Positions 446-42,265 of a stretch of DNA of 43,369 nucleotides are shown here, one piece after another. Both the position numbers and the translations under genes were made by a program. Position 1 is the stretch's first letter. Each line of letters starts with the position of its first letter. The stretch is taken from assembly GCA_025350915.1 (NCBI GenBank), contig JANXWX010000114.1, forward strand, positions 1-43,369, written 5' to 3'. A model generated the notes under the pieces. That model saw nothing but the letters and a program-made list of their open reading frames with translations. It was not told the DNA's origin and did no database searches. The stretch comes from Nitrosomonadales bacterium. GTDB taxonomy: Bacteria > Pseudomonadota > Gammaproteobacteria > Burkholderiales > Gallionellaceae.

Positions 446-976
446 ATGATCGATTTAAACCAAAACAAGATTGCACCCACTTTTGACTCACCGCTGGATA
501 TGCTGCATGCCTGCCATGAGCGCATCATGGATCAGTGTGCGACATTGCAAAAACTCATGCGACATCTGCCCATGCATGGTTGCGATGCCCAGGCACAACA
601 AACTGCGCAGGCCATCATGCGCTATTTTGACACGGCGGGAAAATTTCACCACCAGGATGAAGAAGTCGACTTGTTTCCACTGCTAAAATCTGCTCGCCAT
701 AAAGAAGCCGAAGATCTCGCGCTACGCCTGGAAGATGAACATTTGTACCTGGACGAAATCTGGCTGGCATTGCGCGTTAAATTGGGAGAAATTAGCCTGG
801 GCAAGCTGGCATCACTTGATCACAAGATGATAGGAGATTTCAGCCTTGCCTACGGACGCCATATCATGCTTGAAAATACAAGGCTGCTTCCCCTTGCCTT
901 AAAAATTCTCGATGAAACCCAATTGCAACAGATGGGAAAAAATATGGCTGCTCGACGAGGTGTATCACTTCCCTGA
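446..976 (+). CDS. hemerythrin HHE domain protein
   Basis: A 176-residue soluble protein with the spaced His/Glu pattern of the hemerythrin cation-binding family: His24 (ACHERIMDQ), His68-His69 with Glu72-Glu73 (FHHQDEEVDLFP), His99 (EDEH) and His139 with Glu143 (YGRHIMLENTRLLP). These residues would form a four-helix bundle with a di-iron site. Family members bind O2 or NO or store iron. Next to nitrate respiration genes, an NO- or oxygen-linked role is plausible but inferred. No signal peptide is visible, so it should be cytoplasmic. It appears monocistronic, with the IS element upstream and about 250 bp of non-coding DNA downstream. The ATG at 446 gives a full-length family protein, though the Shine-Dalgarno (AAAGGC) is weak. 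Confidence 0.85.
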   Translation: MIDLNQNKIAPTFDSPLDMLHACHERIMDQCATLQKLMRHLPMHGCDAQAQQTAQAIMRYFDTAGKFHHQDEEVDLFPLLKSARHKEAEDLALRLEDEHLYLDEIWLALRVKLGEISLGKLASLDHKMIGDFSLAYGRHIMLENTRLLPLALKILDETQLQQMGKNMAARRGVSLP

Positions 977-4401: not shown

Positions 4402-4824
4402 TTAATCTTCCCCGGCCAACTCCCGACTGCCAGGAACCTGGAATATCCCTTGCAGGCTTAAAAGTTCATCGCGATGTTTACGTGCGATTTTCTCCACAGC
4501 CTTTAAACCCGCAGGAGTGAGATGAACCTCTATCACCCTCTTGTCACTTTCACTTTTCTGCCGGGCAACCAGGCCCAGTTTTTCACAGCGAGTAACCAGC
4601 GAAACAACACCGTGATGATGTGACTGTAACCGCTCAGCCAGCTCACCGACCGAAGCCCAGCCTTTGCCCTGATAGCCCTTGATATGCAAAAGCAACAAAT
4701 ATTGCAGGTTGGTAATCCCCATTTCATGGGTTATTGTTTCGCTAAAGCGCAGAAACCTGCGTAACTGGTAGCGGAAGTGAGAAAGCGTCTCAAACTCTTT
4801 TTTGCTCAACATGTTATTCGACAT
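4402..4824 (-). CDS. MarR-family transcriptional regulator
   Basis: A 140-residue winged-helix protein. After an N-terminal helix (FRYQLRRFLRFSE) come GITNLQYLLLLHI, the DNA-recognition region SVGELAERLQSHHHGVVSLVTRCEKLGLV, and the wing with the MarR signature DKRVIEVHLTPAGLKAVEKI. MarR proteins are usually dimeric repressors released by a small ligand or by thiol oxidation. This one has only one Cys, in the recognition region (RCEKLGL). It diverges from a dsrC-like gene, and a perfect palindrome sits between them, so it probably controls both. No good Shine-Dalgarno precedes the ATG at 4824; an internal ATG at 4812 is an alternative. It is convergent with the GGDEF-EAL gene. Confidence 0.88.
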   Translation of the reverse strand: MSNNMLSKKEFETLSHFRYQLRRFLRFSETITHEMGITNLQYLLLLHIKGYQGKGWASVGELAERLQSHHHGVVSLVTRCEKLGLVARQKSESDKRVIEVHLTPAGLKAVEKIARKHRDELLSLQGIFQVPGSRELAGED

Positions 4825-4858
4825 AAATTTGTAAATTCGATAAAGTTCGTGTTGTTAT

Positions 4859-4877
4859 TATATCAAGCTGTGATATA
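4859..4877. promoter_or_regulatory. palindrome between marR and the dsrC-like gene, probable MarR operator
   Basis: TATATCA-AGCTG-TGATATA is a perfect 7-5-7 inverted repeat in the 100-bp gap between the divergent genes. Its size and position fit a MarR-dimer operator that would repress both genes. The binding protein is inferred from position only. Confidence 0.55.
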
Positions 4878-4924
4878 TAATTTGCATACCGGTCTAATTT
4901 AACATTTTATCAAAGAGGTGTGTA

Positions 4925-5251
4925 ATGGATACTGCAACTCATTTTCCCGATGTGGATGCTGAAGGTTACCTGGTTGAACCGCAGGAATGGAATGAAGAAG
5001 TCGCAAAAGTGCTGGCAGAACAGGAAAATATCGTGCTGAACGACGATCACTGGGATGTGCTCAATTTTATGCGCGAATACTATGCCGAGCATCAAATTAC
5101 AGTGGATGTACGCCACGTGATCAAGCATTTGGCGGTCAAACACGGGCCTGAGTCGCGCAATATGGTGTTTGAGTTATTTCCCTATGGCTACGTCAAACAG
5201 GCCTGTAAAATTGCCGGTATGAAGCGCCCAAGGGCATGGAGTACGGGTTAA
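4925..5251 (+). CDS. DsrC/TusE-family protein lacking the penultimate cysteine
   Basis: A 108-residue protein with the DsrC/TusE fold signature: DAEGYLVEPQEWNEEVAKVLA at the start, HWDVLNFMREYY, and the C-terminal arm QACKIAGMKRP. Classical DsrC carries two cysteines on this arm, CysB and the near-terminal CysA 11 residues later; TusE keeps CysA. Here CysB is present (Cys94) but the CysA position is Trp105, and the protein ends AWSTG. It therefore cannot form the CysA-CysB trisulfide used by DsrC or act as a TusE-type carrier through CysA. A regulatory or single-thiol role is more likely. The start is well supported by AGAGGTG seven bases upstream. It is divergent from a MarR gene with a palindrome between them, and no dsrAB or tusBCD is nearby. 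Confidence 0.85.
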   Translation: MDTATHFPDVDAEGYLVEPQEWNEEVAKVLAEQENIVLNDDHWDVLNFMREYYAEHQITVDVRHVIKHLAVKHGPESRNMVFELFPYGYVKQACKIAGMKRPRAWSTG

Positions 5252-5356: not shown

Positions 5357-6136
5357 CTATGACAATACAAACTCTACTCCCTGAATATCGGCCAATGCAA
5401 CCAGCCCCTTCAGGTATTGCCTGAGCGCGCGTTTTCTTTTTTGTTCCATCAAGTGCGCGCTCAATTGTTCCTTGACCATTTCAAACGGAAACACTTTTCC
5501 CTGTGCACGCCGGGCAGCCCGGACGATATGCAGACCAAACGGGCTCTCTACCAATGTTGGCGAAATGGTGCCTGCTTCCAGACTGAATATCACACGCTCA
5601 AATTCCGGCACGGTATCCCCTGGTGACAATTGCCCCAGATTACCGCCGACAGACGCTGAAGTACAGGTTGAATGAATACGCGCCAACGCTTCGAACTCAC
5701 TTGGATTTTGCATCACTTGCTGCAGAACTTGCTCAGCCTGCTCACGCAAGGCCGGCGATATAGTGCCCGGTTTAGCCTCAAAAAGTATATGCCCCGCTTC
5801 CACCAGATCACTCTGGCGGAATTGCTCCGGATGGTTCTGGTAATAAACGAGACACTCCTCTTCAGCCAAAGTCGGCTTCACCACTTCCCGCTCAATCAAA
5901 CGCTCGACCATGGTTTCTTCAATAAAGGCTTCTGCATCACGGGTGGTCGCATTGACTGCCTGTTGCTTGACCTCATTTGCTTCGGCAAGTTTGTCATGCG
6001 CTTCCTGACGCAGCACTTCGCGCACGACCAGGGCCTCAATGGCCGCCCGGCGCGGTGCTGGCGCACGGACGTGACCCGACATTTCCAGTTCGATTTCCTT
6101 TTCTGAAATAGTGACACCATTGACGATAATTGGCAT
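5357..6136 (-). CDS. PpiC-type (parvulin) peptidyl-prolyl isomerase of the nar operon
   Basis: A 259-residue protein with no signal peptide, so probably cytoplasmic. The N-terminal half is helical and SurA/NifM-like (VNGVTISEKEIELEM). The C-terminal half is a rotamase domain: EAGHILFEAK, FEALARIHSTC, GGNLGQLSPGDTVPEFERVIFSLEAG and SPFGLHIVRA, the standard parvulin blocks. It follows narI by 86 bp on the same strand. A ppiC gene at the end of narGHJI is a recurrent arrangement in betaproteobacteria, where it is thought to help fold or mature the reductase. A GGGGA Shine-Dalgarno precedes the ATG at 6136. The substrate is inferred from position, not from the sequence. Confidence 0.88.
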   Translation of the reverse strand: MPIIVNGVTISEKEIELEMSGHVRAPAPRRAAIEALVVREVLRQEAHDKLAEANEVKQQAVNATTRDAEAFIEETMVERLIEREVVKPTLAEEECLVYYQNHPEQFRQSDLVEAGHILFEAKPGTISPALREQAEQVLQQVMQNPSEFEALARIHSTCTSASVGGNLGQLSPGDTVPEFERVIFSLEAGTISPTLVESPFGLHIVRAARRAQGKVFPFEMVKEQLSAHLMEQKRKRALRQYLKGLVALADIQGVEFVLS

Positions 6137-6222: not shown

Positions 6223-6915
6223 TCAGACCCTGACACGTTTTGCACGCACGATCTGGTAAGCACGGAAGAGATAACCAAACGGCGCGCTCCATACATGTAC
6301 CAGACGAGTGAATGGGAAGAAAAGAAACACCGACATACCAAAGAATATATGTATTTTGTAGACCATATCCACGCTCAATAGCAGATCGGGATTGGGATGC
6401 AAGTACACAATGCTCTGCGCCCATTCGGCCAGCACGATCATCACGCCGGCATTGTTTTCATGTGCATGTCCAATTGAAACCGGCAGCGTCGACAGGCCAA
6501 GCATCAGTGTCAGCATTAACCAGCCAAGGATATTGATATCCATCCAGCGACTTGCCGCACGTACCCGCACATTCAGCATTCGGCGCAACCACAGGGTGAC
6601 GCCACCAATCAGGCACAGGCCGCCGAAAACCGCACCGGCCAAAATTGCAACCCACTGATGTGTCATATCGCTTACACCCAACGTCCCGAAAATTGCGTGC
6701 GGTGTAAGCAAGCCGGCCATATGGCCAAAGAAGATCGCAATGATCCCGACGTGAAACAGATTACTGGCCATACGCATATATTTTTTGGACAGCAGCTGGC
6801 TCGAATCGCTCTTCCAGGTGTATTGTTCCTTGTCAAAACGTATCCAGCTACCCAGAAAAAATACAACCAGCGCCACATACGGGTAAACCCCAAAAATCAA
6901 TTTATGCAAATCCAT
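6223..6915 (-). CDS. narI: respiratory nitrate reductase gamma subunit NarI (cytochrome b)
   Basis: A 230-residue membrane protein with about five TM helices that oxidises quinol and passes electrons through two b haems to NarH. The four haem-ligand histidines are visible: His55 and His65 (NLFHVG...FFGHMAG) and His189 and His207 (YKIHIFFG...RLVHVWS), matching the E. coli pattern. I chose the ATG at 6915 because GAGGAG lies just upstream; the frame is also open from 6960, which would add 15 unlikely residues. narJ ends 10 bases upstream, so the genes are co-transcribed. Length is normal for the family. Confidence 0.96.
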   Translation of the reverse strand: MDLHKLIFGVYPYVALVVFFLGSWIRFDKEQYTWKSDSSQLLSKKYMRMASNLFHVGIIAIFFGHMAGLLTPHAIFGTLGVSDMTHQWVAILAGAVFGGLCLIGGVTLWLRRMLNVRVRAASRWMDINILGWLMLTLMLGLSTLPVSIGHAHENNAGVMIVLAEWAQSIVYLHPNPDLLLSVDMVYKIHIFFGMSVFLFFPFTRLVHVWSAPFGYLFRAYQIVRAKRVRV

Positions 6916-6925
6916 GGTTCTCTCC

Positions 6926-7456
6926 TCAAACAGTAATGGATGCCCCGGAAACAGGAGCAAGTTGGCCGCGTTTTTCGATCAACCTGATAAGCGGCGCATA
7001 GGGACTTTCTGCGGTCTCCAGATTGGCAGCCAGCTGGGTCAGCACCTTGACAGTTTGTCCCAAAAATACCTTGGCTTCAATTTCTTCAAGGGTGGAAGCA
7101 AACTCCAGTATCAGCGGCAAATAATCCGGCAGTTCCTTGGCATCCGCCTCCAGACCATAGCCCCGATAATACTCACTCAGGTCTATCAGCGCAGGGCCGC
7201 GGCCGCGGTCATCGCCAAACAGGTGATGGGTGAGATGCAGGCTATGCTCCGGATTCATGTCAAACGTCGTGACATAACTTGCCTGCAGATCGGTCACATC
7301 TTGTGCATCCAGCCATTGCAAAAAACGTTTCAGGGTGCTGCGTTCTTCCGCTGAAATTTCATTGACGTATAACAACGAGGTAATTTCAGGCAAGGCGGAT
7401 TTCAGTTCCTGATCGGGATATTCCAGCAAGGCTGAAGCGATTTTATATAGCATCAT
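6926..7456 (-). CDS. narJ: nitrate reductase assembly chaperone NarJ
   Basis: A 176-residue acidic cytoplasmic protein of the NarJ/TorD chaperone family, which holds apo-NarG during insertion of the molybdenum cofactor and the FeS cluster and before membrane docking. Family blocks include LLEYPDQELKSALPEI at the start, YVTTFDMNPEHSLHLTHHLFGDDRGRGPALIDL in the middle, and DYLPLILEFAS. It lies between narH (13-base gap) and narI. Two adjacent ATGs (7456 and 7453) follow AGGAGATGAG; either could be the start. Confidence 0.95.
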   Translation of the reverse strand: MMLYKIASALLEYPDQELKSALPEITSLLYVNEISAEERSTLKRFLQWLDAQDVTDLQASYVTTFDMNPEHSLHLTHHLFGDDRGRGPALIDLSEYYRGYGLEADAKELPDYLPLILEFASTLEEIEAKVFLGQTVKVLTQLAANLETAESPYAPLIRLIEKRGQLAPVSGASITV

Positions 7457-7469
7457 GTCTCATCTCCTG

Positions 7470-9020
7470 TTATGGGCGTTCATCGGCGGAAGGTGCTTCC
7501 TGCAACGAATCCACGGTTTGTTTGCGTCGCTCAGGGAACAGCGAGTTGGCACTAATACCGGCCGAACTGTCATTGCCGAAGGTGAAGCCGTTCTGTCCCT
7601 GGAAGCTGTAGAAATCTTCCAGGCTGACTTCAGCATGACCTGTCGGAATTACAAAGCGATCTTCATAATTGGCGATCGCCAGATAACGATACATTTCCAT
7701 GGCCTGCTCTTCGGTAATACCTGCCGCTTCCAGCGCACGGGTATCGGCCTTGCCTTCCACATGAATCGAGCGTTGATAGCTGCGCATCGCGATCAGACGG
7801 TTCAATGCGGAACGGATAGGTGCTTCCTTGCCGGCGGTAAGCAGATTCGCGAGGTACTGCACCGGCAAACGCATCGTGTCGCCGCGCGGGATCGCACCAT
7901 CGGGACCGACGGGAAGATTGCCCTGATCGATCTGCGACTGCACGGGTGACAGAGGCGGCACATACCAGACCATAGGCAAAGTGCGGAACTCTGGATGCAT
8001 CGGGAACGCAATTTTCCAGTCGATCGCCATCTTGTAGATCGGTGATTTTTGCGCGGCAATAATCCAGTCTTCCGGTACGCCATCCAGACGCGCCTGCTTG
8101 ATTACCTCGGGATCATTCGGGTCGAGGAAGATGTCGAGCTGGGCCTGATACAGATCCTGCTCATTTTCCTTGCTCGCCATCGCTTCAATCTTGTCCGCGT
8201 CATACAGCATGATGCCGTTGTAACGGATGCGTCCCACGCAGGACTCGGAACAGATAGTTGGCATACCGGATTCAACACGCGGATAGCAACCGATGCATTT
8301 CTCGGCCTTGCCGGACTCCCAGTTGTAGTAGACCTTTTTGTACGGACAGGAACTGATACACATACGCCAGCCGCGGCACTTGTCCTGATCTACCAGCACA
8401 ATGCCGTCTTCTTCCCGCTTGTAGATAGAGCCTGAAGGACAGGCTGCCACGCAGGAAGGATTAAGACAGTGATTACACATACGCGGCAGATACATATGGA
8501 ATGTATTTTCAAACTGGGCGTACATTTCCTTGTCGATTTTGGCCATATTCACATCAACCATGCGCTTGTCAGCTTCGCCTGCCAGATCATCTTCCCAGTT
8601 GGGTCCCCAGGTGATTTTTTCCATGCGGGTACCATCGATCAGCGAACGCGGACGCGCTGTCGGTGTTGCCTCGAGCAAAGGCGTTTTCTGCAGATGTGCA
8701 TAATCGAAGGTGAATGGTTCGTAGTAATCGTCGATTTCAGGCATATCGGGATTGGCGAAAATATTCAGCAACCGTTCCAGCTTGCTGCCGGACTTGAGCT
8801 GTATCTTACCGTCTTTCATTTCCCAACCGCCATTCCATACTTCCTGGTTTTCCCACTGTTTCGGATAACCGACACCGGGTTTCGATTCAACGTTGTTGAA
8901 CCAGGCATACTCAACCCCTTTGCGATTGGTCCACACGTTCTTGCAGGTGACCGAACAGGTGTGGCAACCGATGCATTTATCGAGGTTAAACACTAAAGCA
9001 AATTGTGCACGTACTTTCAT
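7470..9020 (-). CDS. narH: respiratory nitrate reductase beta subunit NarH (FeS protein)
   Basis: A 516-residue cytoplasmic subunit that relays electrons from NarI haems to NarG. Four cysteine groups for FeS clusters are visible: C16-x2-C-x2-C-x3-C (CIGCHTCSVTC), CNHCLNPSCVAAC, CRGWRMCISSC, where Trp replaces one Cys as expected for the 3Fe-4S cluster, and CIGCYPRVESGMPTICSESC. The length is normal. The start ATG at 9020 is preceded by GGAGAATTAAA. It lies 56 bp after narG and 13 bp before narJ in one operon. Confidence 0.97.
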   Translation of the reverse strand: MKVRAQFALVFNLDKCIGCHTCSVTCKNVWTNRKGVEYAWFNNVESKPGVGYPKQWENQEVWNGGWEMKDGKIQLKSGSKLERLLNIFANPDMPEIDDYYEPFTFDYAHLQKTPLLEATPTARPRSLIDGTRMEKITWGPNWEDDLAGEADKRMVDVNMAKIDKEMYAQFENTFHMYLPRMCNHCLNPSCVAACPSGSIYKREEDGIVLVDQDKCRGWRMCISSCPYKKVYYNWESGKAEKCIGCYPRVESGMPTICSESCVGRIRYNGIMLYDADKIEAMASKENEQDLYQAQLDIFLDPNDPEVIKQARLDGVPEDWIIAAQKSPIYKMAIDWKIAFPMHPEFRTLPMVWYVPPLSPVQSQIDQGNLPVGPDGAIPRGDTMRLPVQYLANLLTAGKEAPIRSALNRLIAMRSYQRSIHVEGKADTRALEAAGITEEQAMEMYRYLAIANYEDRFVIPTGHAEVSLEDFYSFQGQNGFTFGNDSSAGISANSLFPERRKQTVDSLQEAPSADERP

Positions 9021-9076
9021 TTTAATTCTCCTTGGAGTAACCGATTTTGTTTAGGTTTTTTTCCAATACTTATCAG

Positions 9077-12000
9077 TTAACGAGGGCCGATGCCGACAGG
9101 ATTAAGCTGTGCTTCACGTGCCGCAGTGAGCGGACGCTCCAACCAATCGATGTTCTGATCCTCAATCTTGTGCAGGATCACCACCTCGTCACGCTGGCTG
9201 CCCACCGTGCCGTAATAGTTGAAGCCGTAAGCCAGTTGCGCATAGCCACCCACCATATTGGTCGGTTTGACGGTCACGCGGGTTACCGAGTTGAGAATAC
9301 CGCCGCGCTTGCCGGTGGAGTTGGCACCGGGCACGTTGATATTTTTTTCCTGTGCGTGGTACATCATCGCCACACCGCGCGGTATACGTTGCGACACCAC
9401 TGCTCTGGCCATCGTTGCACCGTTGGCATTCACCGCTTCCACCCAGTCGTTGTCCGCAATGCCGATAGACTTGGCATCCAGCTCGGAGATCCACACATAC
9501 GGGCCACCACGGAACAGCGTCAGCATGCGCAGATTGTCCTGATAAGTTGAGTGTATGCCCCACTTGGAGTGCGGTGTAATCCAGGCCAGGGTCAGGTGCG
9601 GTTTTGCACGCACACTGGCGGGAACAATCTCATGCGCCCGGAAATCGACCGGCGGCTTGAAGGTGCAGAAGCCTTCGCCGAAATCGAGGAACCACTCATG
9701 ATCCTGATAAAAGTGCGCACGACCAGTTAATGTCCTGAACGGAATGTGTTCATGGATGTTGGTATAACCTGCCGTGTAGGAGACATGCTCGGACTCGATA
9801 CCGGACCAGGTTGGCGCCGTAATAATCTTGCGCGGTTGCGCCTGGATATCACGGAAGGTGATCTTGTCTTCATGACGCCCTGCATACAGGTGATGGTGAT
9901 CGATGCCGGTTTTCTTCGACAGTGCACTCCATGATTTGTGTGCGACTTCACCATTGGTTTCCGGTGCCATGCGCAACACGGCTTCACACACTGAAATATC
10001 TTCTTCGAGGGAAGGCATGCCGAATGAAACGCCTTTTTCCTTCACCGTATGATTGATCTTTTTCAGCTCTTCATATTCCTGTTCGGTGTTCCAGTCGATA
10101 CCCTTGACGTTGTTGCCGATCTTGGTCATTAACGGACCCAGCGCGATAAACTTCTTGTAGGTGTCTGCAAAGTTGCGCTCGACCACTTTCAGCAGCGGCA
10201 TGGTCTTACCCGGGATAGGTTCGCATTCACCTTTTTTCCAGTCTTTAACCTGGCCGAAGGGCTGGGCCATTTCAAATGCGGAGTCATGCTGTATCGGGTG
10301 TGCAATCACGTCCTTGCGGATTCCCAGGTGTTTGCCGGACAAAGCGGAGAAAGTCTTGGCAATTGTCTTGAAAATCTGCCAGTCAGACTTGGACTCCCAA
10401 CCCGGTGACACCGCTTCTGACAGGGGGTGAATGAAGGGATGCATGTCGGTGGTGTTAAGATCGTTCTTCTCATACCAGGTTGCCGTCGGCAGGATGATGT
10501 CGGAATAAGCACCGGTGGAATTAAGACGGAAGTTGATATCCACCATCAAATCCAGTTTGCCGATCGGCGCATTTTCATGCCACTTGATTTCCTTGTTGTC
10601 GCGACCCAGACCACCTTCCTGCAGCACGCCGTTTTGTGCACCCAATAAATGCTTGAGGAAATACTCGTGGCCCTTGGCCGAGGAGCCGATCAGATTGGCG
10701 CGCCACACAAACAGGTTACGCGGCCAGTTCTTTTCATTATCGGGATCAGCAAAGGCCACATCCAGCTCGCCCGACTTCAGCTTGCCCACGATATGCTTGG
10801 CGATACTGGCTTCATCGGTTGCACCGGCTTTTTCAGCTTCGCTCACCAGATCGAGCGGGTTCGCATTCCAGTGTGGTGCGGAAGGCAGCCAGCCCAGACG
10901 GGTCGACACCACGTTGTAGTCGGCGAGTGAATAACCTTTGTATTTTGCTTTCGCACCGGGATGCATCAGGTCATCCGCCTTGATGGTTTCATAGCGCCAC
11001 TGGTCGGTATGGAAATACCAGTAGGAGGTTGAGTTCATCTGGCGTGATGGACGCTGCCAGTCCAGTGCAAACGCAATCGGTGCCCAACCGGCCTGGGGAC
11101 GCAACTTTTCCTGTCCCACATAGTGGGCCCAACCGCCACCTGATTGGCCGACACAACCGCACATATGCAACAGGTTCATGATCGAGCGATAGGTCATGTC
11201 GTTGTGATACCAGTGATTGATCGCCGCACCCATAATCACCATCGACTTGCCCTTGGTTTTGGAAGCGTTGTAGGCAAACTCACGGCCGGTGCGCTCGATA
11301 TCCGCAGCCTTGACCCCGCTGACTTTAGATGCCCAAGCCGGTGTATAAGCGACATTCTCATCGTCATAGGACTTGGCCACATTGCCACCGCCGAGCCCGC
11401 GATCAACACCATACTGTGCAATTTGCATGTCAAACACGGATGTCACCAGTACCTCTTCGCCACTGGCCAGTTTCAGTTTGCGTGCGGGAACGTTGCGGTA
11501 CAGCAACTGTTCTTCACCGGGCTGATAATGCGGGAAGCCTACTGATACAACCTGATCTTTGCTGTCGATACAGCTCAACTCGGCCTCGATTTCCTGCTGC
11601 CCAGCTGCATTTTTCGGCAACAGATTCCACTTGCCCTCCTCGCCCCAGCGGAAGCCGACAGAGCCATTCGGTGCGACAAAGGCTTTGCTCCTGGTGTCGT
11701 ATACAATTGTTTTCCATTCCGGATTATTGTTTTCGCCGAGATTATTGGCGAAGTCTGACGCGCGCAGATTGCGGTCTGATACATAGCCCTCACCGAATTT
11801 ACGCAAGATCACTTGCATCGGCAAGTCGGTATATTTGCGCGAATATTCCTGGAAATACGGATCCTGTTTGTCGACAAAAAATTCTTTCAGCGCCACATGG
11901 CCCATCGCCAGGAATACGGCTGTGTCAGTACCCTGTTTCACCGGCATCCACAGATCGGCAAACTTTACATACTCGGCATAGTCGGGCGACATAGACACGA

Positions 12001-12832
12001 CTTTCGCACCCTTGTAGCGCACTTCAGACAGGAAGTGCGCGTCCGGTGTGCGCGTCATCGGCAGGTTTGCACCGGTGATGATGACGTAGGTAGAGTTATA
12101 CCAGTCTGCCGCTTCCGGCACGTCGGTCTGCTCACCCCAGGTTTGGGGTGAGGCTGCAGGCAAGTCGCAATACCAGTCATAGAAAGAACCGCACGCGCCG
12201 CCGATCAACGACATATAACGTGAACCCGCAGCATAAGAAATCATCGACATCGCAGGGATAGGCGAGAAACCATAGATACGATCCGGCCCCCATTTTTTGA
12301 TGGTGTGCACGTTGGCGGCGGCGATGATTTCTGTCATCTCGTCCCAGCTGGCGCGAACAAAGCCGCCCAGGCCGCGTACACCCACATAGGATTTGCGCTT
12401 CTTCTCATCAGCCTGAATCGCTTGCCACGCTTCAACCGGATCTTTGCCGGTCTTACGCTCTGCGCGATACAGGTCGAGCAGTCGACCGCGTATCAACGGA
12501 TGCTTGATTCGGTGCGGGCTGTACAGATACCAGGAGAAACTGGCGCCGCGCTGGCAACCGCGCGGCTCATGGTTGGGCAAATCTTCGCGTGTACGCGGAT
12601 AGTCTGTTTGCTGCATCTCAAAAGACACCAGGCCATTCTTCACAAATATTTTCCATGAACAGCCGCCGGTGCAATTCACGCCATGGGTGGAACGCACTAT
12701 CTTGTCATGTTGCCAACGATGGCGGTAGGCATCCTCCCAGTTGCGGTCCTCATTGGTGACGATACCGTGATCGCCGGAAAATGTGTCTTTGATTTTCTCA
12801 AAAAACTTTAGTCTGTCTAAAAAGTGGCTCAT
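9077..12832 (-). CDS. narG: respiratory nitrate reductase alpha subunit NarG (molybdenum catalytic subunit)
   Basis: 1251 residues, close to the E. coli length. It reduces nitrate to nitrite at a bis-MGD molybdenum centre on the cytoplasmic side. The N-terminal FS0 cluster ligands are visible as His50, Cys54, Cys58 and Cys93 (STHGVNCTGGCSW, EPRGCQRG). Asp223 in WYCDLPAASPQTWGEQTD corresponds to the molybdenum ligand. No long Tat signal is present, which fits a cytoplasm-facing Nar enzyme rather than a periplasmic Nxr-type enzyme. AGGAG precedes the ATG at 12832. Upstream is narK2, 42 bp away. No frameshift or missing ligand was seen. Confidence 0.97.
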   Translation of the reverse strand: MSHFLDRLKFFEKIKDTFSGDHGIVTNEDRNWEDAYRHRWQHDKIVRSTHGVNCTGGCSWKIFVKNGLVSFEMQQTDYPRTREDLPNHEPRGCQRGASFSWYLYSPHRIKHPLIRGRLLDLYRAERKTGKDPVEAWQAIQADEKKRKSYVGVRGLGGFVRASWDEMTEIIAAANVHTIKKWGPDRIYGFSPIPAMSMISYAAGSRYMSLIGGACGSFYDWYCDLPAASPQTWGEQTDVPEAADWYNSTYVIITGANLPMTRTPDAHFLSEVRYKGAKVVSMSPDYAEYVKFADLWMPVKQGTDTAVFLAMGHVALKEFFVDKQDPYFQEYSRKYTDLPMQVILRKFGEGYVSDRNLRASDFANNLGENNNPEWKTIVYDTRSKAFVAPNGSVGFRWGEEGKWNLLPKNAAGQQEIEAELSCIDSKDQVVSVGFPHYQPGEEQLLYRNVPARKLKLASGEEVLVTSVFDMQIAQYGVDRGLGGGNVAKSYDDENVAYTPAWASKVSGVKAADIERTGREFAYNASKTKGKSMVIMGAAINHWYHNDMTYRSIMNLLHMCGCVGQSGGGWAHYVGQEKLRPQAGWAPIAFALDWQRPSRQMNSTSYWYFHTDQWRYETIKADDLMHPGAKAKYKGYSLADYNVVSTRLGWLPSAPHWNANPLDLVSEAEKAGATDEASIAKHIVGKLKSGELDVAFADPDNEKNWPRNLFVWRANLIGSSAKGHEYFLKHLLGAQNGVLQEGGLGRDNKEIKWHENAPIGKLDLMVDINFRLNSTGAYSDIILPTATWYEKNDLNTTDMHPFIHPLSEAVSPGWESKSDWQIFKTIAKTFSALSGKHLGIRKDVIAHPIQHDSAFEMAQPFGQVKDWKKGECEPIPGKTMPLLKVVERNFADTYKKFIALGPLMTKIGNNVKGIDWNTEQEYEELKKINHTVKEKGVSFGMPSLEEDISVCEAVLRMAPETNGEVAHKSWSALSKKTGIDHHHLYAGRHEDKITFRDIQAQPRKIITAPTWSGIESEHVSYTAGYTNIHEHIPFRTLTGRAHFYQDHEWFLDFGEGFCTFKPPVDFRAHEIVPASVRAKPHLTLAWITPHSKWGIHSTYQDNLRMLTLFRGGPYVWISELDAKSIGIADNDWVEAVNANGATMARAVVSQRIPRGVAMMYHAQEKNINVPGANSTGKRGGILNSVTRVTVKPTNMVGGYAQLAYGFNYYGTVGSQRDEVVILHKIEDQNIDWLERPLTAAREAQLNPVGIGPR

Positions 12833-12874
12833 TTATAACTCCTAACTTTATTCAGAAAATACTGTGGAAAATTA

Positions 12875-14260
12875 TCAGCATGGCATCGGCGCATTTTTGC
12901 GAGAGTAGAACCACCAGGTTACGGCAATGCAACTCGCGTAAAAAACGATAAATCCATATATCGCTGCATCTGCCCCGCCGGTTAGTTCAATAGATGTGCC
13001 AAACATTCTTGGAATAAAGAATGCACCATAGGCAGCGAAGGCAGCGGTAAAGCCAAGCACTGCGGCAGCCTCTTTGTTGGCGTCCTTGATTGCCTGCTCT
13101 TCAGCAGCCTTACCTTTCCCTGCGGCGTCCTTCTGCCGCTCATGCAGGAATATCACAGGGATCATGCGGAAAGTTGAAGCGTTGCCCACACCGCTTGCTG
13201 CAAACAGAATCATAAACATAGTGAAGAACATCCAGAAGTTGCCACTGATGCCGCCATGCGGCAGGAACATAATCACACCGTATGCTGCACCGCACATAAT
13301 CAGGAAGGTCCAGAAAGTAACCGCGGCACCACCCAACTTGTCTGCCAGCCAGCCGCCGCCTACCCGGGTAAGCGCGCCTACCAGCGGTCCGAGGAAGGCA
13401 TATTGAATGGGGTTGATGTCGGGAAATTGGGTCTTGGTCAGCAATGCAAAACCTGCTGAGTAACCGATAAATGAACCGAAGGTGCCGAGGTAGAGCCAGC
13501 ACATAATCCAGGTATGCATGCGTTTAAAAATAATCGACTGCTCGGAGAACGAAGCCTTGGCCGAGGCAATGTCATCCATGCCAAACCAGGCAACAAGTGT
13601 TGCTACAACAATAAAGGGCACCCAGATAAAACCGGCATTTTGCAGCCACATATCTTTATGCAGATCACCTTTTACCCAGCTTTGGGGATCGCCACCCAGG
13701 GCGCCAAATACACCCGCAGTGATCACCAGCGGCACCAGAAATTGCATCACCGATACACCCAGATTACCCAGACCTGCGTTCATGCCCAGTGCCATGCCCT
13801 TTTGCGCCTTGGGGAAGAAGAAACTGATGTTGCCCATGCTGGAAGAAAAATTTCCGCCGCCAAAACCGCACAGCAAAGCCAGCACCAGGAAAGAGATATA
13901 GGGCGTATTTGGATTTTGCACAGCCAGACCAATACCGATTGCCGGCAACAGCAACGATGCGGTGCTGATCGTCGTCCACTTGCGCCCGCCAAATATCGGC
14001 ACCATGAAAGAGTAAAAAATACGCAAGGTTGCGCCGGATAGTCCCGGCAATGCGGCCAGCCAGAACAACTGGTTGTTATCGAACTTGAAACCGACATTGG
14101 GCAGATTCACCACCACCATGCTCCACACCATCCACACGGAGAATGCGAGCAAAAGCGCCGGGATGGATATCCACAGATTGCGGCTGGCGACTGCCTTGCC
14201 TTCTTTTTCCCAAAACGCTTTGTCTTCGGGTTCCCACTTGGTTAGCACATGAGATGACAT
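12875..14260 (-). CDS. narK2: nitrate/nitrite transporter, NarK2-type MFS
   Basis: A 461-residue, 12-TM major facilitator of the nitrate/nitrite porter family. Signature segments include GFGGGNFSSSMGNISFFFPKA with the nitrate-signature glycines, and GVGNASTFRMIPVIF in the second half. The hydrophilic stretch RQKDAAGKGKAAEEQ between late helices is typical of the NarK2-like group, usually taken to exchange nitrate for nitrite. The start is placed at 14260 (MSSHVLTKWEP) because GGAGG sits five bases upstream; an in-frame ATG at 14272 lies before that site. It lies between narK1 (45 bp upstream) and narG. The symbol is assigned by position and type; transport direction is inferred. Confidence 0.9.
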   Translation of the reverse strand: MSSHVLTKWEPEDKAFWEKEGKAVASRNLWISIPALLLAFSVWMVWSMVVVNLPNVGFKFDNNQLFWLAALPGLSGATLRIFYSFMVPIFGGRKWTTISTASLLLPAIGIGLAVQNPNTPYISFLVLALLCGFGGGNFSSSMGNISFFFPKAQKGMALGMNAGLGNLGVSVMQFLVPLVITAGVFGALGGDPQSWVKGDLHKDMWLQNAGFIWVPFIVVATLVAWFGMDDIASAKASFSEQSIIFKRMHTWIMCWLYLGTFGSFIGYSAGFALLTKTQFPDINPIQYAFLGPLVGALTRVGGGWLADKLGGAAVTFWTFLIMCGAAYGVIMFLPHGGISGNFWMFFTMFMILFAASGVGNASTFRMIPVIFLHERQKDAAGKGKAAEEQAIKDANKEAAAVLGFTAAFAAYGAFFIPRMFGTSIELTGGADAAIYGFIVFYASCIAVTWWFYSRKNAPMPC

Positions 14261-14305
14261 TGAGACCTCCATTAATTAAATCAATAAAAACGTATTAAAT
14301 AATTG

Positions 14306-15556
14306 TTAAGCTGCCTTGATCTTTTCCTGCTCTGCGTGTAATGGGCGAACTTCGGTAAAGTACATCCACATCAGCGATACCCACACCACACCAAACATCA
14401 GCATAAAGGCGGATGAGCGTATGCCTGTCAGATCAACCAGTGCTCCAAACATGATCGGCATCAGAAACCCGCCCATGCCGCCGGCCAGACCAACCACGCC
14501 CGATACCACACCGATGTTTTTCGGATAATCGTCCGAGATATATTTAAAGACCGAAGCCTTGCCGAGCGCGAAGGCGATACCCATGGTGAACATGATGATT
14601 GTGAACATGGTTGGGCCGAGACCGATATGGAACGTAGAAGGGCCGGTCACGGTCATGATCGTGAACGTTGTTTGCGGATATGACAGGAAAAACAGGCAAA
14701 CCAGAGAGATCCACAACACCCACCAGGTCATGGTATGCGCGCCAAATTTATCGGAGAAGTAACCACCAACGGCACGCAACAGTCCGCCGGGAATACTAAA
14801 TGCGGCAGCGAGCATGGCGGCTGTTTTTAAATCAAAGCCATATTCACTCACATAATATTTTGTCATCCACAGCGCCAGGGCCACATAACCGCCAAACACG
14901 ATTGAGTAGTACTGGCTGTAACGCCATACTGTCGGATCTTTAAGCGCCAGCAGTTGCTCTTTCACACTGACGTTAGCGCCGGCGATATGGGATTTATCAG
15001 AGTAGGTGAACATCCAGAACAGGATGGCTGTTGCGAGCATCAGCCCCGCATAGGCTTTGGGCACCATGGTCCAGGTGCCGTATGCCACGATGATGAGCGG
15101 GGTCACCAGCTTGGTAATGGCCGCCCCGGTGTTGCCGGCGCCGAAAATGCCCATAGCCAGGCCCTGCCTGTCTTTGGGGAACCAGCGTGCACAGTAGGCG
15201 ATGCCAACGGTGAATGAGCCACCCGCCACGCCCACAAATAAACTGGTCACCAGAAAATGCCAATATGCAGTGGCTTGCGAAATCATCCAGATTGGTACCA
15301 CGGTAGACAGCATCAATACTAAAAATACAATGCGTCCGCCAAATTTATCCGTCCACATACCCAGGGGAAGGCGTATCAGCGAACCTGTGAGAACCGGCAT
15401 CGCTATTAACAGTCCAAATTCGGTTTCATTTAAACTCAGCATTGCTTTAATCGGAATGCCGATCACTGCGAACATCATCCAGATCATGAAGCAGACGGTA
15501 AAGGCAACCGTACTTGCCGTCACGACAGACCATGCTTTGTATTGTTGTGTTGCCAT
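14306..15556 (-). CDS. narK1: nitrate transporter, NarK1-type MFS
   Basis: A 416-residue, 12-TM major facilitator of the nitrate/nitrite porter family: GLLIAMPVLTGSLIRLPLGMWTD near the first loop, the nitrate signature GVAGGSFTVGIAYCARWFP followed by GMGIFGAGNTG-like glycines, and a second signature GVVSGVVGLAGGMGGFLMP. The shorter type without the inter-helix insert corresponds to NarK1, commonly regarded as a proton-nitrate symporter. It is the first gene of the nar operon. The start ATG at 15556 is preceded by GGGAG. The upstream 433-bp region holds NarL-type sites. Confidence 0.92.
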   Translation of the reverse strand: MATQQYKAWSVVTASTVAFTVCFMIWMMFAVIGIPIKAMLSLNETEFGLLIAMPVLTGSLIRLPLGMWTDKFGGRIVFLVLMLSTVVPIWMISQATAYWHFLVTSLFVGVAGGSFTVGIAYCARWFPKDRQGLAMGIFGAGNTGAAITKLVTPLIIVAYGTWTMVPKAYAGLMLATAILFWMFTYSDKSHIAGANVSVKEQLLALKDPTVWRYSQYYSIVFGGYVALALWMTKYYVSEYGFDLKTAAMLAAAFSIPGGLLRAVGGYFSDKFGAHTMTWWVLWISLVCLFFLSYPQTTFTIMTVTGPSTFHIGLGPTMFTIIMFTMGIAFALGKASVFKYISDDYPKNIGVVSGVVGLAGGMGGFLMPIMFGALVDLTGIRSSAFMLMFGVVWVSLMWMYFTEVRPLHAEQEKIKAA

Positions 15557-15989: not shown

Positions 15990-17915
15990 ATGAGAAAAAT
16001 CCTCAGCAACCTATTTGATCACTCGTTGCTATTGCGTCTGGGCATGGGTATGGGAACCATTGCCTTTCTCGGCATAGTCGGCATGACCAGCTCAATCATC
16101 ATCGCGGGCATATCCCAGGGCAGTGCAGCGGCAATCAATCAAACCGGTTCCTTGCGCATGCAAAGTTATCGTATCGCCAGCCTGGTTCAACTTGCGCAAA
16201 CCGACAACACGTCAACGCACTGGAACGATGTAGAAAACAGCCTGGAACAGTTTGAGCGTACGCTTTATAGCCCCGGCCTGCTTGATATTGCCGTGTCAAG
16301 ATCGCAAACCAAATCTGCCCTAAACTACCGCAAAGTTGCATCAGACTGGCAAACCCAGCTCAAGCCAAAAGTATCTGCCATTATTGAGCACGGCTTGCAT
16401 ACTTGGCTGCCTGCCCGGCAGCTGGATGCCACCCTTCTCGTTGATATCAATACATTTGTAGCAAGCATAGACACACTCGTTCAGGATTTGGCACATCAGG
16501 CTGAAAATAGAATCGCACTATTGAGCGCCATCCTGGGTATATCCCTGTTCATGACCCTGATCGTCGTGTCTGTCACCATGTTCATGGTATATACGGATGT
16601 ACTCATCCCCTTGCGCGATTTGTTGACCTGCACGGAAAATTTTGGGCACGGCGATCTTGATGTCCGAACCCTGCACATCAGCGATGATGAGTTGGGCCGT
16701 CTGGGCGTAGCGTTTAACTCGATGGCGGAAGACATGTCTAAACTGTATCGCAACATGGAATCACACGTCGCTATAAAAACGGCCGATCTGGAACGCAGTA
16801 ACAAATCACTTGAGCTCCTCTACCAATCCATCTCCAGATTGAACGTAGCCCCCGTCGCCGAAAACACCTACGTAACACTATTGAGAGATCTTGAAACGGT
16901 CCTGGGTGTCGGCCATGGCGCAACCTGTTTGATTGAGAATGACAGCAACAAGGCTGTACTACTGGCCTCTACCCTGCTCCCGCAAAAAGGTGATGCAAAT
17001 TTGTGCAAGCTGAACAATTGTGCGGAATGCTTGAACGTCGACTCGTTAAAAATTCGGCGTATTGGCAAACATGGAGAAAAACAAATATTGTCTATACCCT
17101 TGCGGGATGCGGATAGACATTATGGTGTGATGCAAATGGAAGTACCGCGGGGAAAAACGCTGGAGGACTGGCAAATGCAGCTGCTTGAAGCATTGAGCAG
17201 GCATATCGGCATTGCAATAGGAACCGCACAACGCGCCGGGCAAAACAGACGCCTCTCGTTGCTGGAAGAGCGCGGCGTGATCGCGCGCGAGTTGCATGAC
17301 TCGCTGGCACAATCATTGTCGTATATGAAAATTCAGGTCAGCCGCTTGCAGAATGTTTTGCATACCCATAGTGTGGAAGAAGAAGCCCACACCATCTTGG
17401 GCGAGTTACGCGAAGGCCTGAACAGCGCTTACCGCGAGTTAAGAGAGTTGCTCACCACCTTCCGCCTTAAAATTGAAGGCAATGGCCTGGTCCCAACACT
17501 ACAAAAGACTGTTGCGGAATTTTCAACTCGCGGAAATATTCCGATCAGTATCGAAACCAAGCGGTCCGGTTTCGTGCTGTCGGCGAATGAGGAAATTCAT
17601 ATCATGCAAATCGTGCGTGAAGCGCTGGCCAATGTTGTACACCACTCCAAGGCCAGCCATGCCAATGTATCCGTTGAGCATAGCGGCGACAACTTGATTA
17701 GCGTAACTATCGACGACGACGGAATAGGTATGGATTCCAGACAAACCGAAACACATCACTATGGCATCAACATTATGAATGAACGCGCACTCAGCCTGGG
17801 GGGAACTTTCAATATGCACACGCGTGCTGTGGGCGGCACCCGTGTCACGCTCCGCTTTCATGCCGGAGAACGACATCAACTACGCCCATTACAACAAGGT
17901 TCTTACACAGTATGA
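15990..17915 (+). CDS. narX: nitrate/nitrite sensor histidine kinase NarX
   Basis: 641 residues. TM helix about 18-42, periplasmic nitrate-sensing domain with the P-box (INQTGSLRMQSYRIA, about 50-63), second TM helix about 175-202, HAMP, then a central module with a cysteine cluster (LCKLNNCAEC) as in NarX proteins. The kinase core has the HPK7 H-box ARELHDSLAQSL with phosphorylated His436, the N-box REALANVVHHSKA and the glycine box DDDGIGMD. It senses nitrate/nitrite in the periplasm and phosphorylates NarL. The start ATG at 15990 follows AGGGG. It overlaps narL by four bases (ATGA), and the pair is divergent from the nar structural operon. Confidence 0.93.
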   Translation: MRKILSNLFDHSLLLRLGMGMGTIAFLGIVGMTSSIIIAGISQGSAAAINQTGSLRMQSYRIASLVQLAQTDNTSTHWNDVENSLEQFERTLYSPGLLDIAVSRSQTKSALNYRKVASDWQTQLKPKVSAIIEHGLHTWLPARQLDATLLVDINTFVASIDTLVQDLAHQAENRIALLSAILGISLFMTLIVVSVTMFMVYTDVLIPLRDLLTCTENFGHGDLDVRTLHISDDELGRLGVAFNSMAEDMSKLYRNMESHVAIKTADLERSNKSLELLYQSISRLNVAPVAENTYVTLLRDLETVLGVGHGATCLIENDSNKAVLLASTLLPQKGDANLCKLNNCAECLNVDSLKIRRIGKHGEKQILSIPLRDADRHYGVMQMEVPRGKTLEDWQMQLLEALSRHIGIAIGTAQRAGQNRRLSLLEERGVIARELHDSLAQSLSYMKIQVSRLQNVLHTHSVEEEAHTILGELREGLNSAYRELRELLTTFRLKIEGNGLVPTLQKTVAEFSTRGNIPISIETKRSGFVLSANEEIHIMQIVREALANVVHHSKASHANVSVEHSGDNLISVTIDDDGIGMDSRQTETHHYGINIMNERALSLGGTFNMHTRAVGGTRVTLRFHAGERHQLRPLQQGSYTV

Positions 17916-18556
17916 GTTCGGATTTATCGCAAACGATCCTGATCATTGATGATCACCCCCTGTTCCGAAAAGGGCTGATGCAGCTGATTCAAAGCGCTGC
18001 CGAATTTAAAATCGTCGGCGAAGCTTCCGGCGGTAATGAAGGCGTTAAACTTGCGCTAGCCCTGCATCCTGACATGATCTTGCTTGATCTGAACATGAAG
18101 GATATGAGCGGTATTGATGTGCTGAAAGCGCTGAAAGCGACTGATTTGGATGCCCGCATTATCATGCTGACCGTGTCTGACAATGCGGATGACCTTGCCG
18201 CGGCCATACGTGCCGGGGCAGATGGCTACCTGCTTAAAGACATGGAACCCGAAGATTTGCTCGACAATATTCGCGCGGGTGCAATGGGCAAGATGACCCT
18301 TAATGACCAATTGACCGGCATGCTGGTCAGGGCACTGAATGAAGGAAACAAACCAAAAAGTGCGAGTGAGGCGGGGTTAACCGAGCAGGAGGAAAAAATT
18401 CTCAAGCTGATTTCCACCGGAAAAAGCAACAAGCTCATCGCATACGATCTGGGCATTACCGAAGGTACGGTGAAAGTACATGTCAAACACATACTCAAAA
18501 AACTCAATCTGAAGTCGCGTGTCGAAGCGGCGTTGTGGGCATTCGGAAACAAATAA
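17912..18556 (+). CDS. narL: nitrate response regulator NarL
   Basis: A 214-residue two-component regulator. The receiver domain has acidic residues Asp13-Asp14, phosphorylation site Asp59 (MILLDLNM), Thr87 and Lys109 (GYLLKD). The C-terminal LuxR/FixJ-type helix-turn-helix is LTEQEEKILKLIS...NKLIAYDLGITEGTVKVHVKHIL. Its start codon overlaps the narX stop (ATGA), showing translational coupling. The assignment as NarL rests on the NarX partner and the adjacent nar operon with a 7-2-7 heptamer site. Confidence 0.92.
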   Translation: MSSDLSQTILIIDDHPLFRKGLMQLIQSAAEFKIVGEASGGNEGVKLALALHPDMILLDLNMKDMSGIDVLKALKATDLDARIIMLTVSDNADDLAAAIRAGADGYLLKDMEPEDLLDNIRAGAMGKMTLNDQLTGMLVRALNEGNKPKSASEAGLTEQEEKILKLISTGKSNKLIAYDLGITEGTVKVHVKHILKKLNLKSRVEAALWAFGNK

Positions 18557-18584: not shown

Positions 18585-19748
18585 TCAGTTCACTGAACCG
18601 GCATACAAAGCGGCTATCAAATCTGACTGCGTAACCATCCCAACCAGTCTGCGCTCGGCATCCACAATGGGTATGTGATGTAATCCACGTTCTGATAATA
18701 GCGGCACCAGCTCGACAATATGCATCGTCTCCTTCGCCGAATATACCGGAGCAGCCATAATCTGCCCGACCACTTCCGGTTTCTGCGAGTCCATGCCGGG
18801 TGTACGCTTGATGAATTTGATTAATTTATCCTCAAACGTCTCATAGGTTTTTAAATTCGCCCGCTTGAGAAAATCCACCAGCGTAATTATCCCGATCACC
18901 CGCTGCGCCTTGTCAACAACCGGTATAGCCTTGATCTTGTGATAGCGTAACTGTGCCCAAGCCTCCTCCAGCTCCGTGCCGTATTCCGCCGTCACCAAAT
19001 CACGCGACATGATATCGGCACAGGTAATTTCGCCCATCTTGCGGCGATATGCCTGCATTCCCGCCATTTTATAAATCTGCCCGAGATCTTCTTCCGTTAC
19101 GTCAAGAAATGTATTCATCTGCTTTAAAGCATTGTGTAAGTCAGCCTGATTCACGCCTAACCTGTCCAGTGCGGCAGGATCATCGTGTTTATGTATATCT
19201 TTGCTAACAATAACTGTGCGCGCAGGATAACGGCGTCCCGGTAACAGATTGTTGAACACAAACCCCAGCACGAGCAGTAACAAGACATTTAAACCGACCG
19301 GCTCCAAAACGAACTGATATCCCAGTTCGTGCACACCGGTTCCGCCCAGCAAGGGCAACAAAGCCAAAGCACCCCCAGGGGGATGCACACAACGCAACAG
19401 TTGCATAATCAGCAGGGACAACGAAAGTGAGACAGCTGCCGCCAGCACCACATCTTGTATTAGCTTGCCACAGGTTACAGCGATCAGTGCAGGCAAGATA
19501 TTACCGGCAGTCATAGGCCAGGGTTGCGATAACGGACTGTGATAAACCGCAAACATTAATATTGATGATGCGCCGATAGATGCGACCAGCACCGGCAATG
19601 CAATACCACTGACAAATATACTGGTAACATAGCCAACCACTAGAATTGCGACAAATGCCGCCAACACGGAGCGCAGTTTCTCTCCCGTGCTTAATGTCAC
19701 CGCCTCAGGCATGAAAGTCTGGAATAATTTAAATAAGCGTGCTTGCAT
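18585..19748 (-). CDS. HPP-family membrane protein with tandem CBS domains
   Basis: 387 residues. The N-terminal 170 residues form four to five TM helices with the HPP-family motif CVHPPGGALAL, and a GASSILMF block. The C-terminal half is cytoplasmic with two CBS domains (ITCADIMSRDLVTAEYG...HKIKAIPVVDKAQRVIGIITLVDFL and VGQIMAAPVYSAKETM...LHHIPIVDAERRLVGMVTQSDLIAAL), which usually bind adenine nucleotides. HPP proteins in plants and cyanobacteria have been linked to nitrite transport. Lying beside narXL, a nitrite or nitrate channel gated by energy charge is attractive, but inferred. It is convergent with narL, 28 bp apart, with no clear terminator between. Confidence 0.88.
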   Translation of the reverse strand: MQARLFKLFQTFMPEAVTLSTGEKLRSVLAAFVAILVVGYVTSIFVSGIALPVLVASIGASSILMFAVYHSPLSQPWPMTAGNILPALIAVTCGKLIQDVVLAAAVSLSLSLLIMQLLRCVHPPGGALALLPLLGGTGVHELGYQFVLEPVGLNVLLLLVLGFVFNNLLPGRRYPARTVIVSKDIHKHDDPAALDRLGVNQADLHNALKQMNTFLDVTEEDLGQIYKMAGMQAYRRKMGEITCADIMSRDLVTAEYGTELEEAWAQLRYHKIKAIPVVDKAQRVIGIITLVDFLKRANLKTYETFEDKLIKFIKRTPGMDSQKPEVVGQIMAAPVYSAKETMHIVELVPLLSERGLHHIPIVDAERRLVGMVTQSDLIAALYAGSVN

Positions 19749-39573: not shown

Positions 39574-40542
39574 ATGAGCATATCAACCAACTGGCTTTCG
39601 CTGATCATTAGTCTACCCACTTCCAACGCAACTGCCCGTATGCGTATCTGGCGTGCGCTAAAGAGCATGGGCTGTGGCGTGTTGCGTGACGGAGTTTATC
39701 TGCTGCCGGATAGTGAAGATGCCGCACTCAGCCTTGAACAGCAGGCCGCAGAAATTATTGATGCCGGTGGTAACGCACAGATCGTAAAACTGCAAAGCAC
39801 TCAACCTGCCCAGGATCTTGTCTTTCGCAAATTGTTTGACCGAACTGACGATTATGTCGTACTTAAACAGGAAATCGACGCCTTTCTCGGCACTTTGCCT
39901 GCACAGAACCTGCTCGCGAGCAAACGGCTATTGAAACGGCTGGCGCGTGACTTCGCCGCTATTTCTGCGATTGATTTTTTCCCCGGTTCCGCACGCGATC
40001 AAATCGCGCTTTCACTGGAAAAGGCTACGTCCGAACTGGCCGCTGCGAGCAATGCTGACGAACCCCAACCCGCACAGGGGAAAATCAAGAAATTGAAACG
40101 CGAGGATTACCAGCAGCGCATCTGGGCAACGCGAAGAAGAATGTGGGTAGACCGTATGACAAGCGCATGGCTGATCAGGCGATTTATTGATCCTGCTGCG
40201 AAATTCATGTGGCTGCAGATGCCACAGGATTGCCCGGAAAATACATTGGGTTTTGATTTTGATGGTGCGACGTTCACTCATGTTGGCGCACTGGTGACCT
40301 TTGAAGTACTGCTGACTACATTCGACCTCGAGCGCGATCCCGCACTGGCACGAATGGCTGCTGTGGTGCATTACCTCGATGTAGGCGGTATTCCGGTAGC
40401 TGAAGCAGCGGGGCTGGAAATAATTTTGAAAGGCATGCGCGAACGCTGTGCCGACGATGATGGTTTACTTCGTGAAGCGGCCATTATTTTTGACGACTTG
40501 TACCAGACCTATTCCAGCGAGGAGAACACGCATGAACAATGA
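39574..40542 (+). CDS. chrB: chromate resistance protein ChrB
   Basis: 322 residues. The N-terminal half (WLSLIISLPTSNATARMRIWRALKSMGCGVLRDGVYLLP) is a winged-helix-like domain found in ChrB regulators. The C-terminal ChrB domain has RIWATRRRMWVDRMTSAWLIRRFIDPAAKFMWL, FDFDGATFTHVGALVTFEVLL and VHYLDVGGIPVAEAAGLEIIL. ChrB is the chromate-responsive regulator that controls chrA. It overlaps chrA by 11 bases and begins a plus-strand operon. The ATG at 39574 has no strong Shine-Dalgarno. Confidence 0.92.
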   Translation: MSISTNWLSLIISLPTSNATARMRIWRALKSMGCGVLRDGVYLLPDSEDAALSLEQQAAEIIDAGGNAQIVKLQSTQPAQDLVFRKLFDRTDDYVVLKQEIDAFLGTLPAQNLLASKRLLKRLARDFAAISAIDFFPGSARDQIALSLEKATSELAAASNADEPQPAQGKIKKLKREDYQQRIWATRRRMWVDRMTSAWLIRRFIDPAAKFMWLQMPQDCPENTLGFDFDGATFTHVGALVTFEVLLTTFDLERDPALARMAAVVHYLDVGGIPVAEAAGLEIILKGMRERCADDDGLLREAAIIFDDLYQTYSSEENTHEQ

Positions 40543-42251: not shown

Positions 42252-42265
42252 CCGCGGAGACAAAC

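Follow-up and report, generated by a model that had tools for sequence, protein, structure and literature searches.

A putative accessory DsrC-like subfamily with a Cys/Trp C-terminal arm in sulfur-oxidising proteobacteria and its possible link to nitrate respiration

The DsrC-like gene that lies divergent from a MarR-family regulator in the window (the whole stretch of 43,369 nucleotides analysed here) appears to represent an accessory subfamily of DsrC paralogues, carried by rDsr sulfur-oxidising proteobacteria and linked to nitrate respiration or the handling of NO; confidence in this reading as a whole is about evenly balanced. It draws on the conservation of the C-terminal arm, on the genes found around the subfamily and on the genomes that carry it. 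Sulfur-driven denitrification matters in groundwater and wastewater, and the genomic distribution of the subfamily suggests that sulfur oxidation and nitrate respiration may be connected. No role has so far been assigned to additional dsrC copies in sulfur oxidisers; for the four such copies of A. vinosum, involvement remains to be established, according to an excerpt of the source (PMC3368242). With its fixed arm, its nitrate/NO genomic link and its predicted operator, the subfamily defined here makes the role of such copies directly testable. Current annotation (TIGR03342) labels the members as sulfur relay proteins, although they lack the sulfur-bearing cysteine of DsrC. A search of the open literature, with the main family review and the T. 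denitrificans papers outside its scope, found no description of a CysB/Trp subfamily or of a nitrate link, and the novelty of the subfamily is provisional.

Table 1. Features of the window, with positions counted from its first letter
Feature	Position	Strand	Evidence
Hemerythrin-domain protein, upstream	446..976	+	PF01814, E 2e-13
MarR-family regulator, divergent from the DsrC-like gene	4402..4824	-	PF12802, E 1e-12, 48.5 vs 27 bits
Predicted sigma-70-like promoter TTGTTA-18-TATAAT, spacer filled by the operator	4852..4881	+	Consensus match 10/12
Predicted palindromic operator TATATCA-AGCTG-TGATATA, core ATATCA-N5-TGATAT at 4860-4876	4859..4877		Conserved at divergent MarR loci
DsrC-fold protein, Cys94 (CysB) kept, Trp105 at CysA	4925..5251	+	Profiles, alignment, model, family counts
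PpiC-type peptidyl-prolyl isomerase, downstream of narI	5357..6136	-	PF00639, E 2e-20
narI, narJ, narH, narG and two narK-type transporters	6223..15556	-	PF02665, PF02613; TIGR01580 (narG) over cut-off
NarX/NarL-like sensor kinase and response regulator	15990..18556	+	Inspection of the sequence and marker labels

The DsrC-like protein and its arm

The DsrC-like open reading frame scores above the curated cut-offs of both PF04358 (E 2e-32, 112 bits against 24.9) and TIGR03342 (103 bits against 53.5), and these scores together with a predicted DsrC fold place it in the DsrC/TusE superfamily. An AlphaFold model built from 25 sequences has a mean pLDDT of 83, falling to 54 in the last block at the end of the arm. 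The best match in the PDB is the DsrC structure 1yx3, by profile and also, for the predicted model, by Foldseek (E 4e-7); below E 0.001 the Foldseek search returned only DsrC structures. The arm reads FPYGYVKQACKIAGMKRPRAWSTG. In the profile alignment to 1yx3, Cys94 falls on CysB of the A. vinosum protein. Trp105 follows 11 residues later, the same spacing as that between CysB (Cys100) and CysA (Cys111) in A. vinosum, as numbered in an excerpt of PMC3397948. The preliminary description of this DNA had assigned the two residues to the CysB and CysA positions, and both the assignment and its coordinates for the two genes stand.

The same description proposed looking through the family for members with Cys at the CysB position and an aromatic residue at CysA. 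Such members are abundant: 134 of the 135 copies have Cys at CysB (the remaining one has Val), all 135 have Trp at CysA, and Cys at residue 105, which would have spoken against that description's proposal, occurs in none of them. The Trp count depends to some extent on how the copies were recognised, since the C-terminal motif played a part in this for 128 of them; the seven that the motif filter missed were added by eye for the tree and for the counts over all 135 copies. Ten duplicate loci were excluded from the arm, operator, tree and neighbour counts, as was one broken copy (L059:8320-8595), whose reading frame leaves the family pattern before the arm. Cys94 and Trp105 are invariant in all 25 aligned orthologues. 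In a tree built with the arm cut off, the subfamily forms one clade (SH-aLRT 98), which spreads over many families of the class. Scores in a survey of the class are bimodal: subfamily members align as far as residue 108 with at least 122 bits, and other DsrC/TusE proteins reach at most about 121 bits, in alignments that end at 102-104.

As judged from these sequences, loss of CysA is common to the whole clade, and the Cys/Trp arm is not a product of decay, because Cys is kept in all copies but one and Trp in every copy, and because the clade holds together even without the arm. The gene could instead be a degenerate, functionless dsrC copy that hitchhikes with nearby nar genes, and the broken copy mentioned above shows that a member can leave the family reading frame at its end. 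However, the arm residues do not vary among the 25 aligned members, and the clade is represented in many families of the class; because of this conservation, degeneration is highly improbable.

The missing cysteine bears directly on sulfur transfer. In A. vinosum, persulfuration of DsrC occurs exclusively at the penultimate cysteine, CysA, and both the interaction of DsrEFH with DsrC and the transfer of sulfur between them depend on that residue, according to the part of the paper available (PMC3397948). By analogy, the window protein is unlikely to carry persulfide in the way DsrC does, since it has replaced the only residue that is persulfurated in A. vinosum DsrC; on this point the preliminary description, which had doubted a sulfur-carrier role, is borne out.

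The MarR regulator and its predicted operator

The product of 4402-4824 contains a MarR domain (PF12802). Between its gene and the DsrC-like gene lies the perfect 7-5-7 palindrome that had been noticed earlier; both arms match perfectly, and 0.13 such palindromes, allowing up to two mismatches, are expected by chance per window. The core sequence is present in all 27 intergenic stretches in which a MarR gene diverges from a DsrC-like gene (18 exact, nine with one mismatch), against none of 68 regions upstream of DsrC-like copies that lack a divergent MarR, with at most one mismatch allowed. First-order Markov resamplings contained the site at this threshold in 0.4% of cases. In seven of eight relatives with MarR, the genome holds a single exact site, the one between MarR and the DsrC-like gene, and in the eighth the site at that place has one mismatch. 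This pattern is strong evidence that the palindrome is a functional operator, as predicted from sequence. At three loci (L130, L131 and L133) an extra gene apparently separates the operator from the DsrC-like gene.

Repression is suggested because the operator sits between the -35 and -10 elements of the predicted promoter. MarR would bind at 4860-4876 and repress the DsrC-like gene by covering the spacer, would repress its own gene as well, and would release the operator in response to a signal tied to nitrate or NO respiration.

The preliminary description had gone further and proposed a one-thiol regulator controlled by this MarR or signalling through it, which amounts to a dedicated pair; a regulatory role of the DsrC-like protein itself is conjectural. 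Its simpler part, a conserved link to MarR, survives: the divergent pairing recurs in 27 of the 135 copies, each with the predicted operator. That linkage is conserved in just one part of the tree, however. The other 108 copies have no divergent MarR, 29 copies have a divergent LysR gene, and a few have NsrR-like neighbours; the regulator labels require 27 changes on the tree. MarR orthologues (51-76% identity) were found in 16 of the 99 other relative genomes searched, and the gene adjoins the DsrC-like gene in nine of these. In four of the remaining seven genomes the operator precedes MarR (three exact, one with one mismatch), and one of the seven orthologues adjoins an NnrS gene. Orthologues without a DsrC-like gene fit a transcriptional regulator that has this gene as one of its targets. 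The dedicated pair is therefore very doubtful and was rejected, because of the LysR and other contexts and of the MarR orthologues elsewhere. MarR is, on the evidence of these gene neighbourhoods, one of several regulators of the subfamily, and the DsrC-like gene is probably a frequent target of MarR, not an exclusive one, because MarR orthologues occur without it, several of them fronted by the operator.

Some of these loci deserve separate mention. The same exact operator accompanies a MarR orthologue that faces a membrane-protein gene in L335 and one that faces a gene for an enzyme resembling those of PLP-dependent Cys/Met metabolism in L336 (both labels taken from sequence). In L329 / L046:7991-8500 an in-frame TAA interrupts the MarR gene shortly before its end, and the operator is still intact.

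The genome from which the window comes has two exact operator-type sites and seven with one mismatch; a reversed-pattern control gave two. Two of the additional sites fall in promoter regions. One of them is exact and lies 88 bp before a gene for a molybdopterin reductase; the family scores of this enzyme are intermediate between formate dehydrogenase and the assimilatory nitrate reductase NasA, below both cut-offs, and it is read from its sequence as NasA-like. The other has one mismatch and lies 66 bp before NnrS, a gene present once in the genome and divergent from a hemerythrin gene; this shared promoter region is on a different contig from the window, close to a U32-peptidase gene. In MarR-bearing relatives, operator-type sites were found before NnrS at none of four loci and before NasA-type genes at none of seven. 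In relatives, 20 of the one-mismatch sites, a selection from all such sites, were examined together with the loci of the site survey itself, and none of them precedes a nitrogen marker. Because the NasA and NnrS sites are absent in MarR-bearing relatives, a wider MarR regulon is a lead and not a result.

Nitrate and NO genes around the subfamily

No dsr or tus genes lie near the pair within the window, as the preliminary description had stated, but that description overlooked the narIJHG genes, the two narK genes and narXL, which begin 1.0 kb from the DsrC-like gene. A hemerythrin-domain gene, like the one upstream in the window, is also found near the nar locus of a relative (L062). Adjoining the NarX/NarL-like pair, at 18585-19748, is a gene for an HPP-family membrane protein, apparently fused to CBS domains; in many relatives the gene that comes after the DsrC-like one encodes a free-standing HPP protein. 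Farther along, inspection of the sequence indicates a chromate-resistance-like cluster at 39574-41917 and 42215-42724, with a transporter-like open reading frame and two ChrB-like ones.

Neighbourhoods were mapped with one marker set at 94 loci (79 distinct loci from the best 80 of 513 relatives, 14 more and the window) and at 40 class-wide loci; the set leans to close kin because of this choice from the best 80. Gene maps came from a gene finder based on amino-acid composition, followed by marker searches, and markers were counted at 30% identity within 8 kb, with HPP left out. At least one of NarGHIJ, NnrS, NirS-like, NorD, NorQ and NasA lies within 8 kb of 41 of the 135 copies, compared with none of 39 control windows (Fisher p 8e-6). 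The controls were 16-kb windows placed at set fractional positions along ten carrier genomes; 40 were taken, and one (L256) was dropped for overlapping a focal locus. The class-wide loci by themselves give 7/40 against 0/39 (p 0.012). The direction of this enrichment is secure; the p values are generous, because the markers were chosen from these loci after inspection and the loci are mutually related. Most copies (94 of 135) lack any strict nitrogen marker inside that distance; many contigs are short, and the marker set is small. Nitrogen contexts require 20 changes on the tree, and therefore the association has, to judge from the tree, arisen or persisted in many branches.

Several arrangements recur. 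In the Thiobacillus type, narKGHJI is followed by a pyridine-nucleotide-disulfide oxidoreductase (weakly sulfide:quinone reductase-like), the DsrC-like gene and NnrS. Other arrangements have NorQ/NorD, cytochrome cd1, a TonB receptor, the DsrC-like gene and NnrS; an NsrR-like Rrf2 gene, the DsrC-like gene and NnrS; a LysR gene divergent from the DsrC-like gene, which is followed by a TM_HPP gene; or the divergent MarR gene already described. At four loci (L055, L056, L186 and L206) the copy adjoins dsr genes instead, as labelled from sequence and from the dsrA match in the window's own genome. Two side observations may be added. The oxidoreductase of the Thiobacillus nar operons, which lies between narI and the DsrC-like gene (L081:2576-4123, L097, L085 and others), is a 515-aa FAD protein weakly like type III sulfide:quinone reductase. 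NnrS genes, and in several cases hemerythrin genes as well, surround the DsrC-like gene in L043, L051, L057, L191, L205 and L296.

The genomes that carry the subfamily were surveyed across the class (369 genomes, including that of the window). Apart from the window's own genome, 42 of the 368 are carriers, chosen by hand as having a match that reaches residue 108 at 122 bits or more. The dsrA gene, counted down to fragments of about 114 bits, is present in 40 of the 42 carriers and in 78 of the 326 non-carriers; the two carriers without it are fragmented or incomplete assemblies. Among genomes with dsrA, narG occurs in 16/40 carriers and 12/78 non-carriers (p 0.005), and NnrS in 34/40 and 55/78, an enrichment that is not significant (p 0.11). 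Four of the 42 carriers have neither narG nor NnrS. The subfamily therefore appears, from this co-occurrence with dsrA and narG, to belong to rDsr sulfur oxidisers, preferentially to those with nitrate reductase. The genome of the window itself has a dsr operon with its own DsrC on another contig, C104. That contig also carries a second CysA-less DsrC paralogue (L060:2719-3048), which ends in KQGCKVGGLPQPLGKGGY and is divergent from the dsrAB operon; neither arm cysteine is present in the relatives of this paralogue from L055 and L056.

What the protein might do in such cells is best put conditionally. Under the favoured reading of an accessory paralogue linked to nitrate respiration, the protein could not accept persulfide from DsrEFH as DsrC does, for want of CysA; the DsrC fold and the arm may be kept for docking on a DsrC partner (DsrAB, DsrK or similar) or on DNA, Cys94 might act as a single redox- or NO-reactive thiol, and the protein might adjust sulfur oxidation during denitrification. 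A much more specific version is rather unlikely: a respiration switch, in which a DsrC look-alike made under nitrate or NO would dock through its arm like DsrC, with Trp in place of CysA and Cys94 sensing NO or persulfide, and would slow or divert sulfur oxidation by rDsr as denitrification yields NO, the gene having been put repeatedly under MarR, LysR or NsrR-like control.

The position of the gene beside molybdoenzyme operons could also point to a sulfur carrier of another kind, in which a persulfide on Cys94 would serve some task of nitrate respiration, such as cofactor or Fe-S maturation or the repair of nitrate reductase. Cys94 is almost always kept, and single-cysteine carriers do exist, as in TusE with CysA, but Trp is conserved even more strictly than Cys, and in A. 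vinosum both the persulfuration of DsrC and its interaction with DsrEFH need CysA (excerpt of PMC3397948). This alternative is unlikely.

The retained fold, the conserved arm length to the CysA position and the presence of dsrA in nearly all carriers would also suit a structural plug. CysA reaches the siroheme in DsrAB-DsrC structures, and Trp105 in its place might block the DsrAB channel and make the protein a competitor of DsrC during denitrification. However, the end of the arm is the part of the model with low confidence, and binding to DsrAB is purely hypothetical; such a plug is decidedly unlikely.

Relation to known systems

The closest comparison is with DsrC itself, as known from the rDsr system of A. 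vinosum. The window protein shares with DsrC the fold, the Pfam family, the sequence that precedes the arm (45-55% identical, approximately, to the DsrC of relatives) and CysB. It differs in having Trp at CysA and a C-terminus two residues longer (W-S-T-G), and its gene lies outside a dsr operon, in a subfamily that forms a separate clade. DsrC in the strict sense has both arm cysteines and is encoded in a dsr operon, and neither is true here.

TusE, the sulfur relay protein of tRNA thiolation, belongs to the same superfamily and likewise has one arm cysteine. However, TusE retains CysA and the window protein retains CysB, and the score against the TusE equivalog model NF008562 is 83.9 bits, against a cut-off of 191, which places the protein outside TusE. 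RspA, reportedly put forward by Venceslau et al. (2014) as a regulatory DsrC-like group without either arm cysteine, shares with the window protein the DsrC-like character, the lack of CysA and a probable place outside sulfur transfer. It is said to lack both cysteines, whereas CysB is kept in nearly every member of the window subfamily, which thus falls outside RspA.

A resemblance is also found in viruses. The viral dsrC_1 of SUP05 phages lacks the second C-terminal cysteine, as stated in an excerpt of PMC4164917, and in this it resembles the window subfamily; among phage DsrC proteins, the pattern with the first cysteine only was found in 1 of 141, according to the part of PMC8190135 available. 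A scan of viral contigs with the subfamily alignment found no relative, and a viral origin of the gene was rejected on that result.

On the regulatory side, the locus resembles those of autoregulated MarR repressors, with a divergent gene pair and a palindrome in the shared promoter region. The difference lies in the predicted target, which here is a DsrC paralogue.
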